Below, piece after piece: positions 1-24,043 of a stretch of DNA of 24,466 bases (its first letter is position 1; every line of letters starts with the position of its first letter). The DNA lies in the IMG/VR virus record IMGVR_UViG_3300028173_000644, positions 1 through 24,466 of that record. One strand, written 5' to 3'. The position numbers and the translations under genes are program-made. The stretch comes from a virus. The notes below the pieces were generated by a model. The model saw nothing but the letters and a program-made list of their open reading frames with translations. It searched no databases and was not told the origin of the DNA.

Positions 1-2042
1 GACTGATTCGGGATCTCCCCCCGCACCGTCGGGCTCGCCTGCATCCACGCGAGTTCCGATTCTTTGCGGGCGTCCGCCTCGGCGATGAGTCGGGCGCGCT
101 CCTCGGCGCCCTTCTTGAGTACGGGTAAAGCGACGCACCTGCAATTATGCGTTATGATGCCGTTGGCCGCATACCATCCCGTCGCGGTCTCGAGGTTGTA
201 GACATGGCCCGCAAATACACAGCTACCTACGCGGAGAACGCGCACCGCCTCAACCTGGATGGGCGCAACCTGCGAGAGATCGCCGAGGCCCTGGGGGGCG
301 GCGCTGACAACGTCGGCAAGTGCCTCCGCGCCCATGGGTTCGAGTACATCAGCCCCAAGCGTACGGCGCCAAACGCCAAGGACTACGACCGGACCGAGAT
401 GGCCGTTCGATACCAGGCTGGCGAGAGCGTCAAAGCTCTGGCGGAGTTCTACGGAGTGCAGAGACAGACGGTCACGAACGAACTCAAGCGTCGCGGCGTC
501 GAACTTCGCGGGCGTAGCGAGGCCATGTTCGTCCGCATGGCCAGTACTACCGAGGAAGAACGCAAGCGCCTTACCAGCGCCGCGAACGAGGCTGTCAGGG
601 GCCACGAGAAGAGCGCGGAGTGGCTCGGCAACATCGCCAAGTGCGGGCGTCGGCGCGTCGGCAAAGGCGAGAAGGAGTTCGCGGGATTCCTCACGGCTCA
701 TGGAGTCGAGCACGCCAGGCAGGTCCCAATCGACTCGTACGAGATCGACATCGTCGTCGGCGCCGTCGCCGTGGAAATCCACAGGGACGCTTCCGGACCG
801 CTCGCAAGCGCACACAGACGAAAGCGCGTCGAACACCTGCTGAATGCAGGCTACTCCGTGCTCTACGTCGGCTTCCGCTCTGTCGCTGAGATCGTGGCGA
901 ACGCGGAACACCTCATCGCCCACCTCGACGAGATGCGCCGGGATCCAGCCGCGCCGCGTGAGTACAGGATGGTTCGGTGTCGCACGAAGCGTTTCACCCG
1001 TGGCCGTAACGATCTCGGCCAGATCACCGCTGAACCATCGCCGGTACGCTACTCGTGCGAGATGACAGAGCGACACGTCGGTGTCACCTGGTAGGCACTG
1101 CCAGAGCTCCCCGGGGTGCCCACGGTCCCCCGCATCGGAGGCCACGGGCGGCTGGCTCCACTTGTAGATGTTGCCATCCAGGTCGGCATGCTCCTGGCGC
1201 ACCCTCGAGTCCCCCACCGTACTCCACTGATACTCCTCGACCCCCAGCGACTCCATGCGCTGCTGGGCGATGGCGGCTGACAGGTTCGCGGTCTGGTCCC
1301 TGGCCAGAAAGCTCGCCTTGTTCCACGTCAGATCGAAGCGCTTCTGATACTCCTTGGCCAGGTCGAGGGTCGGCTTCCCTGCGGCGACGGCGCGCATGAC
1401 CTCGTCCGCTGTCCGCTCCAGGGCGTCGAGGCCCTTGTCCAGCATGGAGCGGGAGAAGTCCACGTTGGCCAGCACCCATGCCCTGACGTCCTGGGAGGGG
1501 ACGTGGGTGGCGATCGGGATTGTGAACAGCCGGGACAACTCCCGGTCCGTGGCGTCCGTGGTGTCCTCGTCGATCTCCCTGCCGATGAGTTCGAGGCCGG
1601 GGACGTCCGCCTCGACAATGTCGTCCAGCATCCCGCGCACGGCCTGGATCACGGCGGGGACGGAGGGCCCGGCGTCCATGCGGCGCGGCAGGATGACCCC
1701 GTCCACGCGCTTGGACAGGTCGCCCTTGAGCTCCTCCACCTGCTTGGACTGCTCGCGGATGGAGGCACGGGCGACGCGCATCACCAGGTCGAAGACGAAC
1801 TGCCACCGGGACTGCAGTAGTTCGCGCTGCATGGTCTCCAGGCGGTCGGAGAAGCGGGGGACGCGGCCGGAGAAGGGGCCCCCGGCGCGCTTGGCGTCCG
1901 TGCGGCCCAGGAGCATCCGTCGGTCCCTGGCCGTGATGCGGGCACGACGGCGGAGGGCAAACTTGGCGGCGGCATCGACGTCTGCGTGGACGATGCGGGA
2001 GCGTCCGGAGACCCAGCCGCCCTTCACCTGGTAGATGGGCAC
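1..2042 (-). CDS. Mu F-like minor head (head morphogenesis) protein interrupted by an intein; 3' end outside window
   Basis: The minus-strand frame is open from a GTG start (2040-2042) to the window edge. A GGAGGAGG ribosome binding site sits just upstream. The N-extein is 315 residues. Its last ~90 residues carry the signature of Mu gpF-like minor head proteins: an ARDQTANLSAAI helix, then SLGVEEYQWSTVGDSRVR, a DLDG segment and HPGELWQ. After the intein the frame resumes as CRCVALPVL, the conserved CRC motif of the family, and at least 47 C-extein residues are present. The family acts in procapsid assembly and lies next to the portal, as here. Cys1 of the intein follows HPGELWQ and the +1 extein residue is the first Cys of CRC, so splicing would restore the motif exactly. 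The start overlaps the preceding 68-aa gene by 19 bases. The family call rests on motif recognition, not alignment. Confidence 0.9.
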   Translation of the reverse strand, partial: MPIYQVKGGWVSGRSRIVHADVDAAAKFALRRRARITARDRRMLLGRTDAKRAGGPFSGRVPRFSDRLETMQRELLQSRWQFVFDLVMRVARASIREQSKQVEELKGDLSKRVDGVILPRRMDAGPSVPAVIQAVRGMLDDIVEADVPGLELIGREIDEDTTDATDRELSRLFTIPIATHVPSQDVRAWVLANVDFSRSMLDKGLDALERTADEVMRAVAAGKPTLDLAKEYQKRFDLTWNKASFLARDQTANLSAAIAQQRMESLGVEEYQWSTVGDSRVRQEHADLDGNIYKWSQPPVASDAGDRGHPGELWQCLPGDTDVSLCHLARVAYRRWFSGDLAEIVTATGETLRATPNHPVLTRRGWIPAHLVEVGDEVFRVRHDLSDRAEADVEHGVACIQQVFDALSSVCACERSGSVPVDFHGDGADDDVDLVRVDWDLPGVLDSMSREESRELLLAFADAPTPALGDVAEPLRALLVAPDSLVRGAGKALAFFLGSTGHADEHGLATPAKFDAATLEFVRDRLSLHSVELRQSFDALASLVSNGHLGPVVVLGVWRRTLGADVLEPMGAEALADVVSAAPQGLGDLSQVAPIQVEAVRVLRVGSCVFAGHVYNLETATGWYAANGIITHNCRCVALPVLKKGAEERARLIAEADARKESELAWMQASPTVRGEIPNQ
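144..1097 (-). other. Intein (Hint protein-splicing domain) inside the Mu F-like head protein, 318 codons
   Basis: Block A is visible as Cys1 in CLPGDTDV. Block B is TPNHPVLTRRGW, with the TxxH core at residues 40-43 of the intein, followed by HLVEVGDEVF. The C-terminal blocks F and G read VYNLETATGWYAANGIITHN, ending in the His-Asn pair with Cys as +1 extein residue. These are the residues needed for standard (class 1) splicing: Cys1, block B Thr and His, penultimate His, terminal Asn and Cys+1. The 318-codon frame has no stop. The middle (about residues 90-290) shows neither LAGLIDADG nor HNH motifs. It contains a VDFHGDGADDDVD stretch and otherwise Ala/Leu/Asp-rich sequence that does not look like a known nuclease. 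A nuclease is encoded on the opposite strand of this same region. Confidence 0.93.
204..1094 (+). CDS. Putative homing endonuclease (Vsr/EDxHD-like) encoded antisense within the intein
   Basis: This is a 296-aa protein from ATG 204; a GAGG site at 192-195 lies 8 bases upstream and favours this start over the in-frame ATG at 147. Residues 22-45 (LREIAEALGGGADNVGKCLR) and 75-101 (SVKALAEFYGVQRQTVTNEL, then GVELRGRSEA) look like two helix-turn-helix segments, typical of homing nuclease DNA-binding arms. Residues 154-222 resemble the Vsr-like fold: Glu156, YEIDIVV with Asp182, then VAVEIHRD with Glu191, His193 and Asp195, and the strand YSVLYVGF. This fits the E-D-x-H-D pattern of the EDxHD family (I-Bth0305I type). 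The stop codon TAG (1092-1094) lies opposite intein codon 2. Codons are in exact register with the intein codons of the minus strand. That frame is often open by chance in GC-rich DNA, but the domain likeness argues for a real gene. Confidence 0.8.
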   Translation: MARKYTATYAENAHRLNLDGRNLREIAEALGGGADNVGKCLRAHGFEYISPKRTAPNAKDYDRTEMAVRYQAGESVKALAEFYGVQRQTVTNELKRRGVELRGRSEAMFVRMASTTEEERKRLTSAANEAVRGHEKSAEWLGNIAKCGRRRVGKGEKEFAGFLTAHGVEHARQVPIDSYEIDIVVGAVAVEIHRDASGPLASAHRRKRVEHLLNAGYSVLYVGFRSVAEIVANAEHLIAHLDEMRRDPAAPREYRMVRCRTKRFTRGRNDLGQITAEPSPVRYSCEMTERHVGVTW

Positions 2043-2230
2043 GGGGCCTCCTCCTGCGCCCTGTACTGCACCACCTCGCCGTCTGGCCGCAGCCAGATCA
2101 GCCGGGCCAGACTCTGGCGCACGGCCGGGGGCAGGGCGGCCCACCTTCGGCGCAGGTCCTCGATGGAGTCCACCACCTCACGCACGGGGGCAAGGTCCAC
2201 GGTGAGGCAGACGGTGGAGTCGTTGGTCAC
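2024..2230 (-). CDS. Small hypothetical phage protein, 68 aa
   Basis: It starts at GTG 2230, overlapping the portal stop in a GTGA junction, and ends 19 bases inside the head-protein gene, so it is translationally coupled on both sides. The protein is mostly helical in appearance (VREVVDSIEDLRRRWAALPP) and has no recognised domain. Its position between portal and Mu F-like genes suggests a structural accessory or chaperone, but nothing in the sequence shows this. The gene call rests on the tight junctions and a plausible composition. Confidence 0.7.
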   Translation of the reverse strand: MTNDSTVCLTVDLAPVREVVDSIEDLRRRWAALPPAVRQSLARLIWLRPDGEVVQYRAQEEAPCPSTR

Positions 2231-4284
2231 TCCTCGCCCCCGTCCTTCCGATTCGCCAGGAACGGGAAGGTGGCGACGACACGGTCACCGCGCCGCAGCT
2301 CCAGGCGGGAGGCGATCCAGCCCGGGGACTTGTCCTCGTCGCGCTCGGCCACCCAGTCGCGCTGTAGCTCCAGCAGGCGCCCGACGTCCTCGGGCCTCAT
2401 GGTCTCGCTGTATCCCAAGGTCTCGTGGGCTCGGTAGCCGGGGAACTGCTTGGCGCTCACCATGTGGGCCAGAGCGCGCAGCAGCTTCTCGTTGAGCTCG
2501 CGGAGGGTCCAGCCGTCGTGCTCGAGCACCGCGGCCGTTCCCAGCACCTGCAGCCCGGAGGTCGCCATGCGCTGGGGGCTCATGGTCTCGGCGATGGGGC
2601 GGGCCAGGGCTTCCACCTCGCCGTCCCTGGCTGGGTCCACGTCGCCCAGGTAGAGCACGGTGACGTGCGGGGGCTCGTCGTGGGCCAGCGGGCCGACGAT
2701 GGCCTCGGCCTTCCTGCGCCACTCTGCGTGCTCCTCGATGCCTGCCTGGGGGACGGGCACCAGCAGGCACAGGGAGTCCTCGCTGGCGTCTGCTCGGTCT
2801 TGGGCCTGCTGGGCGGCGATCTGCTCCTCGATCATCCTGCGCGCGGCCTCCTCCGCCGCGGGGTCATCGGGCGTCGGGGTTCGCGCGGGCTTGGGATCGT
2901 CCTCCACCGGCTGCATCGAGTGCCTGTAGCCCCCGGGCTGGGCGTAGCGCTGCTTCCTGATCTCGTCCGGGGTCAGCACCCCGTCCATGATGGCGGCGGC
3001 GTCGGCCTGGGTGTGGACGAGCCTGATATCGGCCTGCTCCTTCTCGGACAGATCGCCCAGCGGCAGGAAGTCGATCGACCACTCCTTGGGCAGCGCGTTG
3101 CGCTCGACGTGGTAGAGCACGGTCACAAGCTGGCGCAGGGGCGGCTCGTAGCGGTCGATCTGCCAATCGGCCACGGCCTGGTACCAGAGGGATTGCCAGC
3201 TGCTGCCGTCGGTGTTCAGCCCTCCGGGCGCCTCGCCGAACAGCAGGGTCACGGGAGCCCCGAGCATCAGGGAGAGCTCCAGGCGGGCGTGGTCGGAAAT
3301 GTCCTTGTAGCCGCTGGGGTTCGCGGCCACGCGCTGGAAGTCGTCGCCCGGGGTGAGCAGCACAGACTGCGCCACCGACTTCATCATGTTGAGCTTGCGG
3401 ATCTGGCTGATCCAGTTCGCGCTCTCGTCGCCCGAGGTACGCGTCGGCGCGATCTTGAACACGGCGATTGATAACTCCTGGGCGATGCGAGCCCCGGACG
3501 CCCCGGTCTGGGACAGGTTCCGGATGGAGTCCCACAGCATCTGTCCGATCGGGTCCGCGCCCCACGCCGCCGAGTAGCCCTGGTTGGCGAACGCGAGTTC
3601 GGAGGGGGGCAGGTCGTCGCCGTAGAACCGGAGCAGGCGAGAGGCGTGCACGTCGGTCAGGGACCGGCGGGGCTTGTCCTGGGTGCTGGAGTACCCCGTC
3701 CGCCTTGGCGACAGGTGGTAGTGGGTGGGCATCCCCAGGGGACCGGCCTCGATATCGCTGTTGTAGCGAACCGGGAAGATCTCCCGACGATCGAAGATCT
3801 CCAGGCGATGGATACGCTTCACCTTGTCAGGCCGAAGCGGCTTGTTGAGCGGGTCCGGGTCGTCGGTGACCATCAGAACCAGACACTCACCCATGGCGCG
3901 GCCCCATGTGTCGGCGCGGCGGAACACGCGGCGGACGTCAAGGTCCCGCATCGCCTGCTGTAGGGGGCGTTCCTCGTCGCTGTCGTCGGAGATGGCGCAC
4001 CACTTCGCGGTCGCCCAGGACGGGTGCAGCTGGCAGATCCGCCGGTAGAGCCCGCCGCGGAGCATGGCCACGAGCTCCTCGGCCGTGAGGTAGTCCCGTT
4101 CGATGTTGGGACGGGCCTGGGCCCCGGAGTCGCGGTAGCCGCCGAGCCCGGAGATGGCGTTGCTGACAGCGGCCCCAGAGAGGTTCTGCTCGCTGGAGTA
4201 CGTCGAGTCGGCGCGCAGGCTCGGGGGGGCGACAGGGGCGGGTGGGCCGATGACGAGGTCGCGAAGTCTTGAGCGGACGGACAT
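2227..4284 (-). CDS. Phage portal protein (DUF1073/Acb1-N family) with C-terminal 2H phosphodiesterase-like domain
   Basis: The protein is 685 aa. The start is ATG 4284 (MSVRSRLRDL), chosen because AGGAGG lies just upstream; the longer frame to 4311 has no such site. Residues ~30-470 match the DUF1073 portal family: AGPLGMPTHYHL, SRLLRFYGDDLPP, LELSLMLGAPVTLLFGEAPG, GLNTDGSSWQSLWYQAVADW. Portals form the dodecameric DNA channel at the capsid vertex, and the terminase and head genes flank it as expected. The last ~170 residues are a separate module with two His-x-Thr motifs, HVTVLYLG (His540) and HETLGY (His620). This is the arrangement of 2H phosphoesterases, including the anti-CBASS enzyme Acb1, whose name is attached to this portal family. 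Between the two modules lies a Pro/Ala/Glu-rich linker. The portal role is well supported; enzymatic activity of the tail is inferred. Confidence 0.9.
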   Translation of the reverse strand: MSVRSRLRDLVIGPPAPVAPPSLRADSTYSSEQNLSGAAVSNAISGLGGYRDSGAQARPNIERDYLTAEELVAMLRGGLYRRICQLHPSWATAKWCAISDDSDEERPLQQAMRDLDVRRVFRRADTWGRAMGECLVLMVTDDPDPLNKPLRPDKVKRIHRLEIFDRREIFPVRYNSDIEAGPLGMPTHYHLSPRRTGYSSTQDKPRRSLTDVHASRLLRFYGDDLPPSELAFANQGYSAAWGADPIGQMLWDSIRNLSQTGASGARIAQELSIAVFKIAPTRTSGDESANWISQIRKLNMMKSVAQSVLLTPGDDFQRVAANPSGYKDISDHARLELSLMLGAPVTLLFGEAPGGLNTDGSSWQSLWYQAVADWQIDRYEPPLRQLVTVLYHVERNALPKEWSIDFLPLGDLSEKEQADIRLVHTQADAAAIMDGVLTPDEIRKQRYAQPGGYRHSMQPVEDDPKPARTPTPDDPAAEEAARRMIEEQIAAQQAQDRADASEDSLCLLVPVPQAGIEEHAEWRRKAEAIVGPLAHDEPPHVTVLYLGDVDPARDGEVEALARPIAETMSPQRMATSGLQVLGTAAVLEHDGWTLRELNEKLLRALAHMVSAKQFPGYRAHETLGYSETMRPEDVGRLLELQRDWVAERDEDKSPGWIASRLELRRGDRVVATFPFLANRKDGGEE

Positions 4285-4311
4285 GAGGCCTCCTGGCCAG
4301 AATGATAGCAC

Positions 4312-5912: not shown

Positions 5913-6662
5913 CTACTCCTCCACCCCGTAGGCCCCGTCCTGCTCGTGCAGGTCGATGGCGTCCGCGCGGCCGTCAGCCTCCAGGGCGGCCAGTTCTGCG
6001 TCGAGCTCGGCGTCGGTCTTGTCCTCCAGCCCGTGGGTGACCGTGACGCCTCCAGCGTGCTCCACCGTGCTGCTCTTGCCATGGCCGGTGCGGTCGAGGG
6101 CCATGGTGGCGAGCAGGCGAAGTTCGTTGTCGTCCATCGCTCCAGCGTCCAGGCGCTCCTTCAGTTGTGCCAGGGCCTGGCCTGCGACCTCCCGTAGCGT
6201 GCGCCTGACCTGCTCACTGTGCTCGTCCAGGGCGTCCTCCAGCGCTGCAGCAAAGCCGGGCTGTCGCTTCCACTTTCGGATCGTCCTGGGCACGACGCCA
6301 GCGAACTCCGCGGCATTGATGTTGCTCTCTCCCACGGCGAGGGACTCGAGCGCGAGCCGCTGTTGCGGAGTGAACCTCACGTCCTCTGGATCGAACCGGA
6401 CCACCGGAAGACGTTCCTCCCGCTCCGTTCGTTCGTTCGTTTCCCGTTCGTTCGTTTCTCCCGCGTTCGTTCGTTCGCCGTTCGTTCCGTTCGCTTCCAC
6501 CCCGTTGCGCCTCTTGTCGCGAAACACCATGGCCCGGAGCTTGGCCCGGGGATGCCCGGTGCGGCTGGTGACCACCGAGTACGGGATCGGCTTGGGATAC
6601 CCCTGCCGCTTCCCAAGCATATCCAACACCTGGTCTCGTTCCTTGGCGGACATGCGGGCCAT
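5913..6662 (-). CDS. terS: Probable terminase small subunit
   Basis: The gene sits directly upstream of terL and starts at ATG 6662 in a TGATG overlap with the helicase stop, with GGAGGGG eight bases before it. Residues ~94-137 (FTPQQRLALESLAVG, then NINAAEFAGVVPRTIRKWKR) form a helix-turn-helix of the kind small terminase subunits use to recognise packaging sites. A predicted helical oligomerisation region follows, then an acidic tail. Residues 57-84 are an unusual Thr-Asn-Glu-Arg repeat, produced by a tetranucleotide tract in the DNA. This is probably a disordered linker between a first DNA-binding region and the helix-turn-helix. The call rests on position plus the helix-turn-helix. Confidence 0.82.
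   Translation of the reverse strand: MARMSAKERDQVLDMLGKRQGYPKPIPYSVVTSRTGHPRAKLRAMVFRDKRRNGVEANGTNGERTNAGETNERETNERTEREERLPVVRFDPEDVRFTPQQRLALESLAVGESNINAAEFAGVVPRTIRKWKRQPGFAAALEDALDEHSEQVRRTLREVAGQALAQLKERLDAGAMDDNELRLLATMALDRTGHGKSSTVEHAGGVTVTHGLEDKTDAELDAELAALEADGRADAIDLHEQDGAYGVEE
6426..6494. repeat. CGTT tetranucleotide repeat tract within the small terminase gene
   Basis: On the plus strand the tract contains clusters of 4, 3, 3, 2 and 1 CGTT units separated by short TC or CC interruptions. On the coding strand it reads GAAC/GAACG and gives the Thr-Asn-Glu-Arg repeats. A 4-bp unit makes the tract prone to slippage frameshifts. In several phages the packaging site lies inside the small terminase gene, so this is a candidate recognition site, by inference only. 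Confidence 0.75.
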
Positions 6663-8023
6663 CAGCAGTACCCCTCCCCGCCGCCGTACGGGCCTTCATG
6701 CCGCCGGCCAAGGTCCGAAAACGTCTGATACTCCCCACTCCACCCCATCTCGACCGTCCCCTTCGGCCCGTGCCGGTTCTTGCTCACGATGACCTCGGCA
6801 AGACCGCGCTTCTCGGTGTCGGGGTTGTACTCCTCCTCGCGGTAAATGAAGATCACCATGTCCGCGTCCTGCTCGATGGCCCCTGACTCGCGGAGATCCG
6901 CCATCCTGGGGCGCTTGTTCTCGCGCATCTCAACACCGCGGTTCAACTGGCTCAACAGCAGCACGCAGATCTTGAGCTCCTTCGCCAGCAGCTTGAGTCC
7001 GCGACTCATGCCGGCCACCTGCTGCTCTCTGTTCTGCCGCCTGTCCTCTGCCTCGAGCAGCTGCAGGTAGTCCACCACGAGCAAGCCCAGGTTCGGCTCG
7101 CGGGCCTTGAGGCGCCTCGCCAGGGACCGCAGGCGCGAGACGGTACAGGACACGTCGAGCCAGTGGATGGGCAGGCCGTGTAGCGCCTCCGCCGCGTCAG
7201 CCATCCTCGCGTGATCGTCCGTGCGGCTGGCGAGGATGCCGTTTCGGATCGAGGTGGTGTTGACCCTGGCCTCGGATGCGAACTGTCGATCAACGCACTG
7301 CTCGGCGATCATCTCCTGGTTGACGACGGCGACGGTGATGTGCTCGGAGGCCTTGCGGGCGATGTTGAGCGCAAGGGCGCTCTTGCCCATGGCGGGCCTG
7401 GCCGCAAGGACGATCAGGTCCCCGCCCCGTAGACCTCCCGTCTTCGCGTCGAGCTTCGGGAAGCCCGTGGACGTCCCCGCCACGGCCTGGTGCATCAGGG
7501 CCGCGGTCCGCTCCGCCTTGAGCTGGTAGCAGCGATCCACCACGTCGGCCTGCGTCCGCCACTCGTCGCGCACGGAGGACCCGGCTAGCCTCTGCAGCGC
7601 CTTCTCGCCCTGGGCCAGCACGTCGGAGACGTCCTCGCCCTGATAGGCGCCCTCGAGCAACTCGTGGGCGGTGACGATGGCGCGGCGGCGGAGGGCCCGG
7701 TCCCGCAGGAGGGCGGCGTAGATCTCGATGTTCTGGGTGGACGGCACGCCCTCGGGCAAGCCGGAGATGTACGCGGCGCCCCCGTAGGTCTCGTGGCCTC
7801 GCTGCACGGCGAGATCCACGGCGACCAGGGAGTCGCAGGTGGGGCGCTCGCCCTTACCGTTGACCTCGGAGATCAGACCCCAGAGCTGTCGGTGGGCCTC
7901 GCGGTGGAAGTCCTCGCCGTTGACCTCGTCGCGGAGGATGAGCCAGCAGGAGGGGTCCAGGAGGCAGGCGCCGAGGATGGCGCGCTCTGCGTCGAGGGAG
8001 GAGGGGATCTTGCGTTCGGTCAT
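6662..8023 (-). CDS. dnaB: Replicative DNA helicase, DnaB family
   Basis: It is 453 aa from ATG 8023, which overlaps the preceding stop (ATGA) and has GGAGG eight bases upstream; an in-frame ATG at 8038 is less well placed. Residues 1-110 are the DnaB N-terminal domain (SLDAERAILGACLLDP, HREAHRQLWGLI). The RecA-like ATPase begins near 185 (STGFPKLDAKTGGLRGGDLI). Walker A is ARPAMGKSA (208-216) and Walker B is LLVVDYLQL (314-322). LLLSQLNR (356-362) and the later MADLRESGAIEQDADMV motif are classical. It would unwind the phage fork, recruited by the initiator encoded further upstream in the same operon. Length is normal for the family. Confidence 0.97.
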   Translation of the reverse strand: MTERKIPSSLDAERAILGACLLDPSCWLILRDEVNGEDFHREAHRQLWGLISEVNGKGERPTCDSLVAVDLAVQRGHETYGGAAYISGLPEGVPSTQNIEIYAALLRDRALRRRAIVTAHELLEGAYQGEDVSDVLAQGEKALQRLAGSSVRDEWRTQADVVDRCYQLKAERTAALMHQAVAGTSTGFPKLDAKTGGLRGGDLIVLAARPAMGKSALALNIARKASEHITVAVVNQEMIAEQCVDRQFASEARVNTTSIRNGILASRTDDHARMADAAEALHGLPIHWLDVSCTVSRLRSLARRLKAREPNLGLLVVDYLQLLEAEDRRQNREQQVAGMSRGLKLLAKELKICVLLLSQLNRGVEMRENKRPRMADLRESGAIEQDADMVIFIYREEEYNPDTEKRGLAEVIVSKNRHGPKGTVEMGWSGEYQTFSDLGRRHEGPYGGGEGYC

Positions 8024-8229
8024 CTGCTCATCCTCCATTCGTACAGCACCCGCGCCTCACGCTCCGCGCCCTCTGCGAGGCATCGTCGCTGGTGCTCGTT
8101 TCGTCGTCTCATCGTAGCCGAGATCCGCTGTCGTCTCCGCTGCTCGCGCAGGACCGCCACACAGGCATCGTGGGCGTCCCATTCGCAGGCGAGGCGAGCG
8201 AGGATGGCGGCTTGGTGGGCGGGAGTCAT
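8020..8229 (-). CDS. Small hypothetical protein, 69 aa
   Basis: ATG 8229 overlaps the upstream stop in an ATGA junction, and its own stop overlaps the helicase start in another ATGA. The protein (MTPAHQAAILARLACEWDAH) is strongly basic in its second half, with runs of Arg and Gln, and looks wholly helical. The frame continues upstream to 8358 but without a good ribosome binding site. No domain is recognised; a nucleic-acid-binding role would fit the charge but is not shown. Confidence 0.6.
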   Translation of the reverse strand: MTPAHQAAILARLACEWDAHDACVAVLREQRRRQRISATMRRRNEHQRRCLAEGAEREARVLYEWRMSR

Positions 8230-8396: not shown

Positions 8397-8861
8397 ATGC
8401 GTCAATGCCAAAACTGTGGAAAGCCGATCAGAACCAGAAACGCCAAGCGGTTCTGTTCTCATGCCTGCTACGCGGAAAGCCGCCGCGGGTCGTTGGGGCC
8501 TGGCAACTTCAAGCCGGGCAAAGTCCCGGCCAACAAGCTTCCTGTTGGCTCTGTGACTTTCAGATCGCGCCCTGGGCGCAACCAGGCGGCTCGGGCGTGG
8601 GTCAAGATCGCTGAGCCGAACGTGTGGAGGCTTCGCGCTCAGGTTGTTTGGCTGTCCGCTGGGTGTAAGATTCCGGACGGTATGGTCCTTCACCACGTCA
8701 ACGAAGACAGGACGGACGACAGGCTCGAGAACCTCGAGTGTCTCACAAAGGCTGAGCACCTCGCCGTCCATCGCGAGGACCACGCAGCGAAGCGCAGGGA
8801 GGGCCTGCTCCGAGCATGGAAGAGGCGGAAGGCTGACACTCATGCGAAAAGCCCCTCCTGA
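8397..8861 (+). CDS. HNH homing endonuclease, free-standing
   Basis: This 154-aa protein starts at ATG 8397 behind GGAGG. The N-terminus has a four-Cys zinc site (C4, C7, C20, C24: CQNCGKP and FCSHAC). Residues ~94-126 carry the HNH core: DGMVLHHVNEDRTDD with His99 and His100, then Asn112 in RLENLECL, then His121 and His125. This matches the HNH_3 homing type found widely in phages. It is transcribed against its neighbours and overlaps the 3' end of the methyltransferase gene by 22 bases. That is the usual picture of a mobile nuclease gene inserted between phage genes. It would make a double-strand or nicking cut in DNA lacking the insert. Confidence 0.92.
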   Translation: MRQCQNCGKPIRTRNAKRFCSHACYAESRRGSLGPGNFKPGKVPANKLPVGSVTFRSRPGRNQAARAWVKIAEPNVWRLRAQVVWLSAGCKIPDGMVLHHVNEDRTDDRLENLECLTKAEHLAVHREDHAAKRREGLLRAWKRRKADTHAKSPS

Positions 8862-9559
8862 ACCCCATCCGATTCGGCCTGAGCCAGTCGTCGGGCAGCG
8901 ATCTCGAGGTATGCGGGCTCACGCTCGATCCCGATGAAGCGCCGACCCTCACGCAGCGCCCCAACCCCCGTGGAGCCTGACCCGCAGAACGGATCAAGCA
9001 CGCGCGTTGCTCCGGTCCACTTCACGAGCTGGGCGCACAGATCAGCCGGCTTCTCTGCTCCGTGGTGGGCATGGCTGCCGTACGGCCAACGATGCCGGAT
9101 CACAGCGGGCAGTGTCCTTGGGATGATCTCTGGATCGTGCTTCCAGTCAGGGCCACGGATGAACCCGATCATCTCGAAGCCAGCACGGAACGGAGAGCCG
9201 AGCCCGATGCTTTCACGGTCCCACACAAGCGCCTGAGACTGACGCCAGGCGCTCGCGGTCTGTCTGTCGATCCCACCAGCGATGGACCCGTGAAGAGCCG
9301 CTATCATCCTCCAGTCCGAGAACAGAAAGCCGCAGGATCGGCCGTCGAGACACGCCGAGATCCTCTCCCACGCACCACGGAACCAGTAACTCCAAAACTG
9401 GGTATCAGTCGCGGAGTCGCGCCCGCTCGTGTTTCCGCCCGCGGTCGCGTACGGGGGATCGCTTACGATCCCGTTTGCGCACACGCCAAGCTGAGGCAGG
9501 ACGTCGAACAGGTCTCCACTGTAGAGCGTCCACCGCTCGCCGGAATCAAACGGCTTCAT
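8840..9559 (-). CDS. DNA adenine-N6 or cytosine-N4 methyltransferase, DPPY type
   Basis: The 239-aa protein starts at ATG 9559 with GGAGG six bases upstream; the adjacent GTG at 9562 is an alternative. The catalytic motif DPPY is at residues 34-37, and the S-adenosylmethionine site DPFCGSGST is at 189-197. The catalytic-motif-first order is that of the beta class. No target-recognition domain of notable size is inserted, as in short phage enzymes such as Dam-like and CcrM-like proteins. It would methylate phage DNA, most simply against host restriction. It is one of three methyltransferase signatures in the window. The target sequence cannot be read from the protein. Confidence 0.93.
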   Translation of the reverse strand: MKPFDSGERWTLYSGDLFDVLPQLGVCANGIVSDPPYATAGGNTSGRDSATDTQFWSYWFRGAWERISACLDGRSCGFLFSDWRMIAALHGSIAGGIDRQTASAWRQSQALVWDRESIGLGSPFRAGFEMIGFIRGPDWKHDPEIIPRTLPAVIRHRWPYGSHAHHGAEKPADLCAQLVKWTGATRVLDPFCGSGSTGVGALREGRRFIGIEREPAYLEIAARRLAQAESDGVQEGLFA

Positions 9560-9761
9560 CACGAGCCTCCCACCACGTAGCGACTTCGTGGGCTGCGTCC
9601 CATACGTCGTCGGGAATCTGCTCTTCTTCCCAGTTGCTCACATCGGCCCATGCCTCCCCGAGTTTCGTTCGCTTCACCTCCCCGCAGTCGTCGTACTCGT
9701 CGCTGTTGAACCGAAGTTCGTCAGCCATCCAGCGTTTCATTTCTGTCCATTGGATTCTCAT
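9546..9761 (-). CDS. Small acidic hypothetical protein, 71 aa
   Basis: ATG 9761 overlaps the stop of the 27-aa gene upstream (ATGA), and the 3' end overlaps the methyltransferase start by 14 bases. The protein is rich in Asp, Glu and Trp (MRIQWTEMKRWMADELRFNS, then EEEQIPDDVWDAAHEVATWW). Small acidic phage proteins are sometimes DNA mimics or enzyme inhibitors, but no specific family is recognised. Its coupling to the methyltransferase suggests joint expression. Confidence 0.7.
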   Translation of the reverse strand: MRIQWTEMKRWMADELRFNSDEYDDCGEVKRTKLGEAWADVSNWEEEQIPDDVWDAAHEVATWWEARDEAV

Positions 9762-11350: not shown

Positions 11351-11497
11351 ACGCTCCGCGCGCCGCGCCATCGCCTTCTGGTGTCGCTCAGGGCCGTTCT
11401 CGTCACGCCACCACCCGCACAGGCAGAACTGGCCGCGAATATGGAACCCGGCGCGCTTTGTCTTGGCGCCACACTTTGGGCAGCAGGGGTGAATCAT
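11321..11497 (-). CDS. Small zinc-ribbon protein, 58 aa
   Basis: ATG 11497 overlaps the methyltransferase stop (ATGA). The protein begins MIHPCCPKCGAKTKRAGFHI and has CPKC followed by CLCGWW, a four-Cys zinc ribbon. A basic helix follows (RRAEREAAACARGE). Its tail is encoded by the junction repeat shared with two unrelated genes, so the last eight residues are not part of the fold. Likely a nucleic-acid-binding accessory protein; no specific family is identified. Confidence 0.75.
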   Translation of the reverse strand: MIHPCCPKCGAKTKRAGFHIRGQFCLCGWWRDENGPERHQKAMARRAEREAAACARGE

Positions 11498-12162
11498 CCC
11501 TGTCTCCACAGCCGAGCCATAGCCATAGTGTGCCGCTTCGGGTCGATCTCGGCCCCGAGGTAGCGCCGACCCGTAGCGAGACAGGCACGGGCCATGGGGG
11601 CGAGGCCGGCGTAGAGATCGAGCACGAGGTCGTCTGGCTCGGTGAACGCCTCCACGAGCGCTGACAGCCATTCTGCGGGCTTCTCGCTGTGGGCCTGACG
11701 AGGGGACCCGTATCCGTTCCGGGCGCAGCCAAGCGGCTTGGGGGCGCCCTTGACGTACAGCAGCAGCGGCTCTGTATCGCCGCGCCAATGGAAGCCGACG
11801 CCGAGCCCGCTGGTCTTGTGCCACGAGCCGCCCGACTTGTACCGCCATCCGATCTCGTGTCCAGCCGTCAGCCACTCCTCGAGCTTCGGCCAGGTGCACC
11901 AGCAGAGCAAGTAGGCGTCATCGGCGGCGCTGTCGTAGGCGGCGCGAAGGTGGGCGCCGATGTCGGCCATTGTGAGTAGTCCGTACTCGTCTTCGGCGTT
12001 GCCCTGGACCGCGGCGTTGTCGTATTGCCACGGCGGATCCGCCATCACAAGCCGCGCTCCTCGGCACTCGGTCAGGATCTCGGCCACGTCGCAGCAGCGC
12101 AGGTCGATCCCGGGCTTGGTCGGGTGCGCGCGTTGACCCCATAGGTCAGCCTGTTTGCTCAT
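11494..12162 (-). CDS. MT-A70 family DNA N6-adenine methyltransferase
   Basis: The 222-aa protein starts at ATG 12162 with AGGAG eight bases upstream. DPPW (residues 42-45) in LVMADPPWQYDN is the MT-A70 catalytic motif. Later WKTSG-like and RHSEKP-like elements appear as GGSWHKTSGLGVGFHWRG and RQAHSEKPAEWL. The C-terminal VLDLYAGLAPMARACLATGR is the cofactor-binding segment. Phage members usually methylate adenines to evade restriction. It leads the sub-operon that continues into the zinc ribbon and the initiator, and a promoter candidate lies upstream. Confidence 0.92.
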   Translation of the reverse strand: MSKQADLWGQRAHPTKPGIDLRCCDVAEILTECRGARLVMADPPWQYDNAAVQGNAEDEYGLLTMADIGAHLRAAYDSAADDAYLLCWCTWPKLEEWLTAGHEIGWRYKSGGSWHKTSGLGVGFHWRGDTEPLLLYVKGAPKPLGCARNGYGSPRQAHSEKPAEWLSALVEAFTEPDDLVLDLYAGLAPMARACLATGRRYLGAEIDPKRHTMAMARLWRQG

Positions 12163-20006: not shown

Positions 20007-20296
20007 GCAACCACCCCCTCGAGGCCATCCCCTGGGGCCGCCTGTCGCCACAGGAGCAGTTCGACGCCCACCTTGCCGCCCTGGCTCGCGCAGAGGCTGC
20101 CGAGGTTCGTGTCGCCGTGCTCGACGCCAAGAACGCCGTGCTGCGCGAGACCCTGGAGGGGTTGTTGTCCACCCTGCGACGGCTCGCCAACAACGCCGAC
20201 GCGACCATCGAGTCCGTCCAGGAGATCAGGCCCGCCCATGTGTGCACTGCGTGCACTGCGTGTGACCTCCCGAAATGCGCCTTCCTCCCCTTCTGA
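20003..20296 (+). CDS. Coiled-coil protein with Cys-rich tail, 97 aa
   Basis: It starts at GTG 20003 with GGGGAG upstream. Residues ~16-72 are a long helix with heptad-like Leu/Ala spacing (DAHLAALARAEAAEVRVAVL, LRETLEGLLSTLRRLANNAD). The tail has Cys-x2-Cys-x2-Cys-x4-Cys (VCTACTACDLPKC), partly encoded by a 9-bp duplication GTGCACTGC at 20242-20259. A dimeric coiled coil with a metal-binding end is suggested. No family is recognised. Confidence 0.68.
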   Translation: MSNHPLEAIPWGRLSPQEQFDAHLAALARAEAAEVRVAVLDAKNAVLRETLEGLLSTLRRLANNADATIESVQEIRPAHVCTACTACDLPKCAFLPF

Positions 20297-20321
20297 CCGT
20301 CCAACCCAAGGAGTGACCCCC

Positions 20322-21557
20322 ATGACCGCCATCGCCAAGCGCCCAGAGCGTTTCGTCGCCAACCTCTACAACCCCCGAATCGCCGTCAAACTGGGAGACG
20401 AGGGCTTCGCCCACCAGGCGTGCGAGTGGGTCCGCCTCTTCGCCGACGTGGACCTCTACTCGGCCAAGCAGCCCAACTACGAGGTGTGGGGCCCCGGCGT
20501 CGCCAAGTTCTGCAAAGCCCTGGGCGCCCGCGTGACCCCGCTCGTCGCCAGCCCTGACCCCGTGGCCAACGACTTGAAGCCCGGGTTTCGCTGCACCTAC
20601 GACGAGCAGAGCGGCGTCCTCATCAAGGTCGAGCAGGACGTCCTGCTGGAGTGCCGCCACCCCAAGACCGGCTCGCCCATCCACATCCTCGCGACGGGTG
20701 AAGTGGACGTCTGGCACGCCTACCTGGCCGACATGGCCAAGCTGGCCGGCGGCCGGGCCGACGTCGCCCAGATCGTCACCAGCAAGGTCAAGGCCCGCAT
20801 GGAGGAGGGCGACGAGCACGACACCTGGGTGTTCTACCCCTACAGCTTCGGGACCTGGTTGGCGCTGAACGTCAGCAAGCCCGCCGTGCAGGACAACCAG
20901 CGGAAGCTCCGCGAGATGGCCCGCCCGGACAAGGTCCGCGGCTTCGCCACCAGCAAGGGCGCCCGTCTGGCCCTCAAGCAGTCCAACCTGGTGCCGATGC
21001 GCTTCACCCGCAACAGCTTCCTGGAGGACCCAGCGGGCCGGCAGTACATCGACGTTCCGGTCATCTGCTGGGTGGCCTACGACAGCCGCGAGCGGATGCA
21101 AGACGCCATCGACGACATGCTGGAACGCCAGGGCGGCGCCATCGAAGCCACCTGGGAAGCCGTGGCGGACGACGCCGACCCCTTCGAGCAGGAGGAGGAG
21201 GGTGAGCCCGAGCGGGAGGCACTGGCCGACAGCGTGCCCGCCATCGCCCAGGACGATACCCTCCACGAGGACGCCATCCCCGCCGAGCGCCCACGCGAGA
21301 AGGTGAAGGTCAGCCCGACACCCTCCGAGCCCGTCCAGCGCGAGCAGAAGGCCATGCCGAAGGCTCGCCAACCCGCCGCTCCCGAGGACACCCCCTGCGA
21401 GCAGCTCATCACCCAGATTGAGCGCGCTGTGGGCGACGACGACGAGACCCTCAACGCCATCCTCGCCGCCTTCAACGTGGACGGACTGGGCGACGCCAGC
21501 GCCGAGACGCTGCAGGACATTCTCACCGAGATCCGCGCGACGCTGGGGCAGGGGTAG
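20322..21557 (+). CDS. Unknown conserved-looking protein, 411 aa, paired with the Rad50-like ATPase
   Basis: ATG 20322 has AAGGAG with a nine-base spacer. Residues 1-270 look like one folded domain: RIAVKLGDEGFAHQACEWVR, LYSAKQPNYEVWGPGVAKFC, EVDVWHAYLADMAKLAGGRA, TWVFYPYSFGTWLALNVSKP, ATSKGARLALKQSNLVPMRF. A Glu/Pro-rich disordered linker (about 285-360) and a short helical C-terminal domain (ITQIERAVGDDDETLNAILA) follow. I do not recognise the family. The gene ends three bases before the ATPase gene, so a partner role is plausible. Single-strand annealing proteins sometimes have this folded domain plus acidic tail layout, but the RecT, Erf or Rad52 motifs are not evident. Confidence 0.8.
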   Translation: MTAIAKRPERFVANLYNPRIAVKLGDEGFAHQACEWVRLFADVDLYSAKQPNYEVWGPGVAKFCKALGARVTPLVASPDPVANDLKPGFRCTYDEQSGVLIKVEQDVLLECRHPKTGSPIHILATGEVDVWHAYLADMAKLAGGRADVAQIVTSKVKARMEEGDEHDTWVFYPYSFGTWLALNVSKPAVQDNQRKLREMARPDKVRGFATSKGARLALKQSNLVPMRFTRNSFLEDPAGRQYIDVPVICWVAYDSRERMQDAIDDMLERQGGAIEATWEAVADDADPFEQEEEGEPEREALADSVPAIAQDDTLHEDAIPAERPREKVKVSPTPSEPVQREQKAMPKARQPAAPEDTPCEQLITQIERAVGDDDETLNAILAAFNVDGLGDASAETLQDILTEIRATLGQG

Positions 21558-21560
21558 ACC

Positions 21561-23636
21561 ATGCGCCGCCTCACCACACTCACTGTCACCGGCCGAGACG
21601 GCTTCAAGGGCTGGACCGGCACCGTCAAACTCCACGGCTGCGACGTCTTCGCCGGCCCCAACGGCACGGGCAAGTCCACCAGGCTGGAGGCCATCGTCGG
21701 CGGTCTGCGCGGGCTGTCCCGCAAGGCTGGCCCAGGCCCCGGCGTCTACGTCGGCCCCACGTCGGCCCGCCCCCGGTCCGCCAAGGTCCGCCTGGACTGG
21801 AACGACGGCCAGAGCCTGGCCAGGGACCTCTCCGTGGTGCAGGGCAAGAAGGCCACCGAAGCCAACATCCAAGCCGACATGCTGGTCGGGCCCCACGTCA
21901 CCCGCTGGGACCTGGGCGACTTCGCCAGCAGCACCGACAAGGCCAGGGCCGAGCTGCTCAAGGGGCTGGTGGGGGCTGGGAGTGAAGAGTGGGACGGCGC
22001 CCGCGTCTGGCGCTTCCTGGACGAGCGCATGGACGTCAAGGCCAAGAGCCGCGGCGCCGACTATCCGCTGGTCAGGCTCCAGACCGACCACGGCATGCCC
22101 GACGATGGCGAGTTGGGCCCCTGGCTCGACTCCGCCACCGACTGGGCCGGCACCCAGTTCACCGCCGCCAACAGCGACAAGCGCCAGGCCGGGCAGGCCG
22201 TCAAGGAGCTCCAGCAGCAGGCCCGCGAGCAGGCCGAGGCCCAGGAGGGCGGCAACCTGGCCCAGGTCCGACAGCGCGCCGGAGAGGTGGCCGAGGATCT
22301 GCGCCAGCTGGCGGGGCAGATCGCCACCGCCTCGCAGGCTGGGCAAGCCGTCAAGGCCTACCAGGAGCAGAGCCAGCGCCTGGCCCGTGCCATGGGCAAG
22401 GCCGGCGAGAACCTCGAGCGCGCCGAGGGGCGGGCCAGGAAGGCCGGTGAACGCCTCCAGCAGGCCCAGGAGCGGCTGGAGGGCCTCCAGTCCCTGGACG
22501 AGGCCAAGTCCAAGCTGGGCGCAGCAGAGAAGGCCACAGCGTCCGCCAAGGAGCAAGCCGCCGCCAGCAAGGCCAAGCTGGACACTGCCCTCCAGGGCTA
22601 CCAGACCCAGCGCGACACCGTGGGTCGGGCCGAGGAGGCCGTGGCCACCCTGCAGGCCCTGCTCGATGACGTGGGCGGCGGCGTCTGTCGCGCCTGCGGC
22701 GACGAGGACCCCGTCGGGCTCCGCGACCGCATCGACGCTGCCCAAGCCCGCGTGGACGAAGAGGCGGCCAAGCTGCCCAAGCTCCAGCTGCGCGGCAGGA
22801 TGACCCGCAAGGCCTGCGAGAGGGATGAGCAGGCAGAACACGACGCCAGCGAGCGCCTCCGCGTTCTGGAGCGCCACATCGCCCCTCTCGAGACCCAACA
22901 CCAGACCGCTCGCTCCAGCCTGGTCCGTGCCGAGGAGATGCGCGACCTGGCCCAGTCCGAGCTGACGCGCTGCCAGAAGGCCGCCGAGGAGGCGGAACTG
23001 GACCTGCAGGCCTTCCAGCAGGAGGACCCGCCCCAGGGCGCCGCCGGGGACCTGGACACGCTCCAGGCCAGACAGACGGCCCTGCAGCAGGAGCAGAAGG
23101 AGCTCCGCAAACAGGGCGAGTCCCTGGCCCGGAACGAGGGCGGGGAGCAGGCGCTCCAGCAGGCGCTGGCGCGGCGTGACTCGGCGGAGAAGCGCTGGCG
23201 CGCGGTGAAGGACCTCCAGGCGGCCCTGGCCGAGCTGCAGGCCGAGGTAGCCCGTGGGGCCTACGGGCCCATCCTGGACCACGCCAACAGGCTCCTCGCT
23301 GACGCTGACGTCCCGCTCCGGGCCTACATCGAGGATGAGGGCGACTTCGGGGCCGAGGTCAGGGACAAGCGCGTCCACTTCGCCAGCCTCTCCGACGGCG
23401 AGCGGGCCCTGGTGGCTGCCAGCTTCGCCTATGCCTTCGCGGCGGCGAGCGGGTCTCCGTGCCCCATGGTCATCCTCGACCGGCTCGAGGCCATCGACGA
23501 GGACCGGGTTGAGGGGTTCCTGCGGGCGTGCCGGGCTGCCGTCGAGGACGGGCGGATCGCCAACTTCGTGGGGGCCCTGCGCTGCAAGGCGGAGCCCGAC
23601 CTGGGCGACGCCTACACCCATTGGCTGGGCGAGTAG
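21561..23636 (+). CDS. Rad50/SbcC-like ATPase with a CxxC hook, 691 aa
   Basis: The N-terminus has the RecF/SMC-type Walker A GPNGTGKST (residues 32-40) after a small beta domain. Long coiled coils occupy about 205-370 and 390-565. At their turn CRAC (376-379) is a Rad50-type zinc-hook motif, allowing dimerisation through one zinc. The ABC signature SLSDGE is at 609-614 and Walker B MVILD at 636-640. The residue after the Walker B Asp is Arg rather than the usual Glu; the nearest acidic residue is Glu643. Lengths are shorter than host SbcC (about 1000), typical of phage versions. No SbcD/Mre11 nuclease is seen nearby. It probably remodels DNA ends in recombination or replication. Confidence 0.88.
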   Translation: MRRLTTLTVTGRDGFKGWTGTVKLHGCDVFAGPNGTGKSTRLEAIVGGLRGLSRKAGPGPGVYVGPTSARPRSAKVRLDWNDGQSLARDLSVVQGKKATEANIQADMLVGPHVTRWDLGDFASSTDKARAELLKGLVGAGSEEWDGARVWRFLDERMDVKAKSRGADYPLVRLQTDHGMPDDGELGPWLDSATDWAGTQFTAANSDKRQAGQAVKELQQQAREQAEAQEGGNLAQVRQRAGEVAEDLRQLAGQIATASQAGQAVKAYQEQSQRLARAMGKAGENLERAEGRARKAGERLQQAQERLEGLQSLDEAKSKLGAAEKATASAKEQAAASKAKLDTALQGYQTQRDTVGRAEEAVATLQALLDDVGGGVCRACGDEDPVGLRDRIDAAQARVDEEAAKLPKLQLRGRMTRKACERDEQAEHDASERLRVLERHIAPLETQHQTARSSLVRAEEMRDLAQSELTRCQKAAEEAELDLQAFQQEDPPQGAAGDLDTLQARQTALQQEQKELRKQGESLARNEGGEQALQQALARRDSAEKRWRAVKDLQAALAELQAEVARGAYGPILDHANRLLADADVPLRAYIEDEGDFGAEVRDKRVHFASLSDGERALVAASFAYAFAAASGSPCPMVILDRLEAIDEDRVEGFLRACRAAVEDGRIANFVGALRCKAEPDLGDAYTHWLGE

Positions 23637-23637
23637 C

Positions 23638-23665
23638 GGCCGTGGGCTCACTACCTCCCACGGCC
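23638..23665. terminator. Inverted repeat between convergent genes
   Basis: GGCCGTGGG (23638-23646) and CCCACGGCC (23657-23665) form a perfect 9-bp stem with a 10-base loop. It lies just after the ATPase stop and over the last codons of the convergent gene. No T-run follows on either strand, so it is a candidate two-way terminator only. Confidence 0.5.
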
Positions 23666-24043
23666 ACGCCCCGGCTCCTTCCTCGCCTCCATGGCGAGGT
23701 AGTCCAGGCAGTAGCGGTTGGATGTGGTGCAGTCGCCTCGGCGCCAGTCGATCAGCCCCTCCTCTTTGAGGACGCCGAGCGCTCTCGTCACCTGTTTCCG
23801 CGAGATCCCGCAGTCCTTCGCGATACGGGACAGCGATGGCCAGCACACCCAGCCTTCATCCGTTGGTTTGGCGCGGGAGATCAGCGTGTAGGCCACCAGC
23901 TTTGCGTGCCATGGGAGCGAGGCGTCGCGGATCCCGCTCATGGCTGCGAGACTGTGCCCGTTCTCGCATGTGTCCAGACTGCCATCTGCATCAAACACGA
24001 CAGCCCCCTTGCTGGCAAGGGCGGCCCTGTTCTGTGGGCTCAC
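23651..24043 (-). CDS. Winged-helix DNA-binding protein (HTH_36-like), possible initiator or regulator
   Basis: The 130-aa frame starts at GTG 24043; an ATG at 23941 (MSGIRDASLPWHAKLVAYTL) is a shorter alternative that keeps the whole domain. WPSLSRIAKDCGISRKQVTR, then LGVLKEEGLIDWRRG, is a winged helix of the type found in plasmid and phage replication proteins and regulators, where the reading head follows a WPS motif. The wing continues as TTSNRYCLDY, and the end is basic (KEPGRGRGR). It lies directly downstream of a cluster of AGTCCCTACC repeats that could be its binding sites. Confidence 0.75.
   Translation of the reverse strand: MSPQNRAALASKGAVVFDADGSLDTCENGHSLAAMSGIRDASLPWHAKLVAYTLISRAKPTDEGWVCWPSLSRIAKDCGISRKQVTRALGVLKEEGLIDWRRGDCTTSNRYCLDYLAMEARKEPGRGRGR

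Follow-up and report, generated by a model that had tools for sequence, protein, structure and literature searches.

The window analysed here is a whole virus record of 24,466 bases, and the question that it raises lies near its first base. A phage head gene starts at 2144 on the minus strand and leaves the window at 3; between 144 and 1097 it is interrupted by an intein, and the plus strand of the same DNA holds an open frame of 296 codons. Is this second frame a gene, and if so, what does its product do for the intein? The sequence-only reading had proposed a compact mobile element in which the protein-splicing half and the invasion half are fully antisense. The features concerned are the following.

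1098-2144, minus strand: N-extein, a Mu-F-like minor head (capsid morphogenesis) protein (Phage_Mu_F, PF04233, E = 3.3e-18)
144-1097, minus strand: intein of 318 codons, Cys1 to His317-Asn318, followed by Cys+1 (translation, NCBIfam, AF2 Hint fold)
3-143, minus strand: C-extein (CRCVALP...), continuing past the window edge (translation)
957-980, minus strand: intein block B, TPNHPVLT, residues 40-47 (Thr40 and His43 invariant in the alignment)
765-776, minus strand: intein FHGD motif, residues 108-111, exactly opposite Val188-Ala189-Val190-Glu191 of the nuclease (catalytic strand)
261-725, minus strand: intein residues 125-279, opposite the HTH/linker half of the nuclease (predicted to be disordered, AF2 pLDDT about 28-45)
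144-254, minus strand: intein blocks F and G, GHVYNLET...GIITHN (alignment)
204-1094, plus strand: antisense nuclease gene, 296 amino acids (two HTH units, linker module, Vsr/I-Bth0305I-like catalytic domain)
192-195, plus strand: GAGG, ribosome-binding site of the nuclease gene, opposite Asn-Leu-Glu of block F
153-158, plus strand: TATGAT, possible -10 element of the nuclease promoter, opposite Ile-Ile of block G (p = 0.066 for this copy alone)
222-332, plus strand: nuclease HTH unit 1, residues 7-43 (AF2)
390-491, plus strand: nuclease HTH unit 2, residues 63-96 (HTH_38, E = 1.9e-9; AF2)
651-944, plus strand: nuclease catalytic domain, residues 150-247 (3r3p, E = 3.8e-7; Z = 9.5-9.7)
669-671, 747-749 and 774-776, plus strand: active-site codons of Glu156, Asp182 and Glu191 (invariant or nearly so in 28 homologues)

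All coordinates of the earlier reading hold. The intein is preceded by Leu-Trp-Gln and followed by Cys, the ATG of the nuclease gene lies at 204, its TAG (1092-1094) is opposite intein codon 2 (CTA), and the two codon registers coincide. We are confident that the locus is a mobile intein with a codon-aligned homing endonuclease gene on the complementary strand. This architecture is near certain and, judged from sequence comparison, a homing function is likely; splicing, DNA cleavage at the junction and the timing of expression are what we infer. Elsewhere on the minus strand, the window encodes a portal protein (PF06381) with a C-terminal 2'-5' RNA ligase/LigT-like 2H phosphoesterase domain in the same ORF (2227-4311), a DnaB helicase, close to the terminase gene, and a pair of separately encoded DNA methylases (6662-8038, 8840-9562 and 11494-12162), and a 1206-codon ORF (20226-23846) that has no match in Pfam.

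Cys1, Thr40, His43 and Asn318 of the intein are invariant in an alignment of 17 homologues, while many relatives end in Ser-Asn or Arg-Asn instead of His-Asn. The C-terminal NCBIfam model TIGR01443 scores above its cut-off, the N-terminal model TIGR01445 matches with E = 3e-4 and the Pfam match to PF14890 (2e-4) is weak and below cut-off. In the AF2 model, residues 1-68 and 282-318 are confidently predicted and form a Hint fold, to which the splicing domain of the Mtu RecA intein aligns with a Z-score of 13.8 (107 residues, 1.4 Å). Residues 81-124 are also modelled with confidence and residues 125-279 are left disordered. Pfam and NCBIfam detect no nuclease family in the sense frame of the intein.

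For the plus-strand protein, Pfam returns HTH_38 (2e-9) and a weak match to REase_MTES_1575/DUF559; single-sequence E-values to the Pfam nuclease families are weak. A profile of the family matches I-Bth0305I (PDB entry 3r3p) in hmmsearch with E = 3.8e-7 (domain 4.5e-7). The AF2 model (pLDDT 84.6) consists of two tri-helical HTH units and a Vsr-like domain. The structural match foreseen from the sequence is borne out, as Vsr (1cw0; Z = 9.7, 112 residues, 3.1 Å) and I-Bth0305I (Z = 9.5) are the top fold matches, followed by 3hrl (Z = 9.0). The Vsr fold does not imply a function in T:G repair. Tyr179, Asp182 and Glu191 are invariant in 28 nuclease sequences and Glu156 is nearly so; the E/D/ExH pattern that had been read from the sequence thus stands for its three acidic residues and fails for the histidine of ExH, His193, which is not conserved. 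The linker module has the sequence RSEAMFVRMA...AVRG. A free-standing HNH-like gene in another locus (L102, about 2388-3110; the HNH reading was made by eye) carries the HTH of the family together with its SEAEQLKWSQM module, and this shared linker module argues that the module belongs to the nuclease side.

In the window alone, the open plus-strand frame could be chance. The DNA is GC-rich and an open antisense frame by itself therefore says little here: antisense phase-0 also runs without a stop for 367 and 533 codons across other genes of the window, the longer stretch lying opposite the terminase gene. It is the relatives that decide. We assembled 72 nucleases from viral contigs, genomes, phages and plasmids, which fall into 41 clusters at 50% identity. 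In the same codon-aligned register, 40 of the 41 clusters have no antisense stop, members with 33-36% GC included; the sole exception, L019, has 12 in 297 codons. The extein codon usage of each gene predicts a total of 143.5 antisense stops across 27 representative inteins, and 0 are observed (log10 P given the amino acids -113.5, a pooled value that overstates independence, the loci being related). In L007, a mini-intein from which most of the nuclease has disappeared, two antisense stops have arisen. Homologous inteins with stop-filled antisense frames had been named as the finding that would speak against the proposed arrangement; instead, all intein homologues that carry the nuclease have this frame open. 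On this comparative evidence, the open antisense frame cannot be chance across the homologues, and together with the Vsr-like folds it strongly supports the compact, fully antisense element.

The whole-family alignments of 28 rows are too diverse for a pattern-based locus search, and sub-alignments were used instead; of two scans of genome contigs, the first returned nothing and the second four loci. With tblastn at E <= 0.01, the nuclease query finds 113 phage records and the intein query 131, many of the matches lying at the same places on opposite strands. The records come from Salmonella Jerseyvirus, Gordonia, Klebsiella, Edwardsiella, Aggregatibacter, Vibrio, Idiomarinaceae and other phages, and nearly all of the loci are annotated as head or hypothetical proteins. 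About twenty of the 113 were read in detail. A minority is of another type, for example the Burkholderia matches, which are to the HTH part, and three records from Acinetobacter; the one of these that was read has a free-standing nuclease. In Escherichia phage Snoke the intein is annotated and the antisense gene is not. An unannotated nuclease gene is hence present in well-studied phages of Salmonella, Klebsiella and Gordonia, within genes labelled 'inteins without endonuclease' or 'hypothetical head proteins'.

Selection is visible in both frames. Differences in the exteins fall mostly at codon position 3, those in the intein core at intein position 1, which is the wobble position of the nuclease; for the pair L022/L050, the counts at positions 1, 2 and 3 are 15, 1 and 3 in the core and 40, 29 and 105 in the upstream extein. 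In the core, dN/dS is 0.10-0.37 for the nuclease frame and 0.55-1.59 for the intein frame, and at blocks A, B, F and G it is 0.23-1.28 and 0.09-0.71, respectively; these are simple Nei-Gojobori counts that leave the overlap of the frames unmodelled and serve for contrast, not as absolute values. The balance at the splicing blocks is tilted to the intein in six of seven pairs and is the opposite in L022/L050 (nuclease 0.23, intein 0.71). The same division between core and blocks is obtained from 15 pooled pairs: pN/pS opposite intein residues 125-279 is 0.42 for the nuclease and 0.80 for the intein, and at blocks F and G 0.81 and 0.37. Constraint thus lies on the nuclease frame between the splicing blocks and, mostly, on the intein frame at them.

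At FHGD, intein Phe108-His109-Gly110-Asp111 lies opposite nuclease Glu191-Val190-Ala189-Val188. The codon of Val190 is GTG in all 30 cases in which the residue is Val (background 0.17; the test was chosen after the sequences had been seen and its p is descriptive), and that of Ala189 is GCC in 30 of 32. The mini-intein L007 keeps FHGD although most of residues 134-276 are gone. The frozen codons and this retention suggest that both strands make use of this stretch; alternatively, the DNA as such might be constrained. VDFHGDG had been taken for the mirror of the VAVE strand of the nuclease rather than a motif of the splicing side: it is indeed opposite that strand, but the intein side constrains it too.

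The beginning of the nuclease gene is likewise written into splicing blocks. Its ATG is opposite the His of GHVYNL, which is CAT in 24 of 30 cases, and the block F Leu codon opposite the ribosome-binding site is CTC 22 times family-wide, with 7.2 expected (chosen after the sequences had been seen, so that the p of 1e-8 is descriptive). A crude shuffle test for ribosome-binding motifs over a wide zone was not significant (Fisher 0.15). A sigma-70-like promoter opposite blocks G and F beats synonymous shuffles (p < 0.05) in 15 of 32 loci; combined over the 32, which are related and hence less independent than the test assumes, Fisher's p is 1.4e-16, and four control placements are flat. A perfect TTGACA-N15-19-TATAAT occurs in six of 106 loci. 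In five of them the consensus directly precedes the nuclease gene, although this count includes one contig twice and one pair of close relatives; the sixth, in L092, is on the other strand and elsewhere. From these codon patterns, blocks F and G appear to encode also the start, the ribosome-binding site and a family-wide sigma-70-like promoter of the nuclease gene, and the antisense promoter at block G makes independent expression of the nuclease plausible. The earlier idea that nuclease and head gene could be expressed in a mutually exclusive way is a hypothesis beside this.

Presence/absence polymorphism is observed in relatives of the window element. Gordonia phages such as Geodirt and Brandonk123 are contiguous across the junction at which Vivi2 carries the intein, and so are Salmonella phages such as vB_SenS-Ent1 and ER23 compared with VSe103, with 93-94% identity. 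Such closely related empty alleles indicate that the element is mobile. The inteins can be closer than the upstream exteins (96% versus 71% for L022/L050, 98% versus 88% for L012/L039), and unrelated inteins sit in exteins that are 97-99% identical; near-identical Gordonia exteins hold three intein types, those of Vivi2, Sedona and Lennon. Among distant pairs the divergences of nuclease, intein ends and extein are correlated at 0.51-0.56 and the three are not separable, so we claim no transfer history for the whole family.

In Gordonia phage Lennon and its relatives (L030, 1501-2580, minus strand) the same Mu-F site is occupied by a different intein, on whose opposite strand an unrelated, LAGLIDADG-like nuclease is encoded. 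Pfam and NCBIfam assign no family to this frame, which has the motif AAFIDGEG and matches annotated endonucleases of cyanophages and a Caulobacter phage in tblastn; by sequence, the Lennon type would be an independent, second origin of the antisense design. In Acinetobacter phage IME285 (L019, 455-2055) a free-standing relative of the nuclease lies tail-to-tail behind an uninterrupted, intein-free Mu-F gene, possibly the ancestral arrangement. The intein/antisense nuclease unit is also seen inside a dCMP deaminase gene (L028 and L103); the one in KX853510 is annotated as head morphogenesis, probably via intein similarity. L033 represents a second insertion site in the Mu-F gene, and in L060 (1832-4318, minus strand) the Mu-F head protein has an intein and a C-terminal ADP-ribosyltransferase domain (PF03496).

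We propose that the two ends of the intein, read from the sense strand, combine into a Hint splicing domain that would excise the intein from the phage head protein. Between them would lie a stop-free, mostly disordered insert whose sequence for the most part mirrors the nuclease. Transcription of the complementary strand would start at its own promoter opposite blocks G and F and give a Vsr/I-Bth0305I-like nuclease with two HTH units. The most likely target of this enzyme is the vacant insertion site in intein-free head genes of co-infecting phages, where it would cut, and repair of the cut allele would copy the intein in.

The family may work in this way while the copy in the window is past its mobile phase, a relic with an unexpressed or inactive nuclease that is retained because decay would break the head gene. 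The weak promoter match of the window copy points in this direction. The overlapping intein also partly blocks decay of the nuclease by stops or frameshifts, and its intact frame is therefore no proof of activity. Nevertheless, Glu156, Asp182 and Glu191, the ribosome-binding site and the start are intact, and near-identical copies in three other contigs are without sign of decay; we consider a relic unlikely. The same overlap admits a broader reading of the active element, in which frameshift decay of the nuclease would break intein and head gene, so that the element resists degeneration. Codon-on-codon antisense packing might then be a general, recurrent solution of inteins that locks the invader to the splicing element and spares it the decay to which homing endonucleases are normally prone. 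The occurrence of two or more unrelated nuclease families at a single site is in line with this, the 12 bp of FHGD and the catalytic strand being the tightest part of the lock; we put it forward tentatively, as a possibility that we rather doubt.

An antisense protein that is expressed but acts as a regulator, or as a nuclease that excludes competitors, would fit the two HTH units and a promoter that faces a late head gene, with whose transcription it could interfere. The closest solved relative, I-Bth0305I, is nevertheless a homing endonuclease, the nuclease is always found within the intein or, in IME285, beside the same target gene, and the pattern of intein presence and absence is typical of homing, which makes this explanation quite improbable. 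We give still less credence to an in-frame readable nuclease insertion with a non-splicing sense frame. The ShiLan domain, an HNH homing endonuclease encoded in the alternative frame of an insertion without stops in the host reading frame, shows that such elements need not be inteins (PMC11855218), but Cys1, TxxH and HN/C are present here, the Hint model reaches Z-scores of 13-14 with solved inteins and the intein frame is constrained at the splicing blocks in most pairs, and we reject it. That the plus-strand frame is open by mere chance in a GC-rich intein is, despite the long frames opposite other window genes, refuted by the stop-free lineages down to 33-36% GC, the constraint on the nuclease core, the invariant active site in a Vsr-like fold and the stops gained where the nuclease was lost, and has practically no probability left.

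The antisense arrangement of intein and nuclease is widespread and apparently undescribed. Our literature search, to which subscription papers were mostly out of reach, found no intein with an antisense endonuclease, and the novelty of an intein with its mobility gene on the opposite strand is provisional and relative to the literature searched. With about 220-350 codons protein-coding on both strands in some 40 divergent phage and prophage lineages, the family provides a large natural set of full antisense dual-coding genes, in which one can examine how a single sequence accommodates two proteins, and may help to explain in a new way why decay spares some homing endonucleases.

Compared with canonical large inteins such as Mtu RecA and Pfu PI-PfuI, the window element shares a Hint domain split by a mobility insert and the occurrence of empty and filled alleles. 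In the canonical inteins, however, the intein polypeptide itself includes a LAGLIDADG or HNH endonuclease as an in-frame domain, whereas here there is no such domain and a nuclease of a different family is encoded by a separate gene on the opposite strand. EDxHD endonucleases and I-Bth0305I are known from introns or as free-standing genes beside split ones. The Vsr-like catalytic domain with HTH DNA-binding modules is common to them and the window gene, which differs in being buried antisense in an intein and in that the His of ExH is not conserved. The ShiLan domain (PMC11855218) is likewise a homing endonuclease hidden in the second frame of a host-open insert, but it is an HNH enzyme on the same strand, outside any intein and with no detectable ribosome-binding site, while the window gene is antisense, inside an intein and has promoter and ribosome-binding signals. 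The nearest precedent is provided by the antisense endonuclease genes of nuclear rDNA group I introns, of which I-DsqI is expressed and cuts the intron-lacking site (PMC9548176). There, too, a self-splicing element carries its endonuclease gene antisense to the host transcript; the host is a non-coding RNA intron, whereas in the window both strands are protein-coding with aligned codons.
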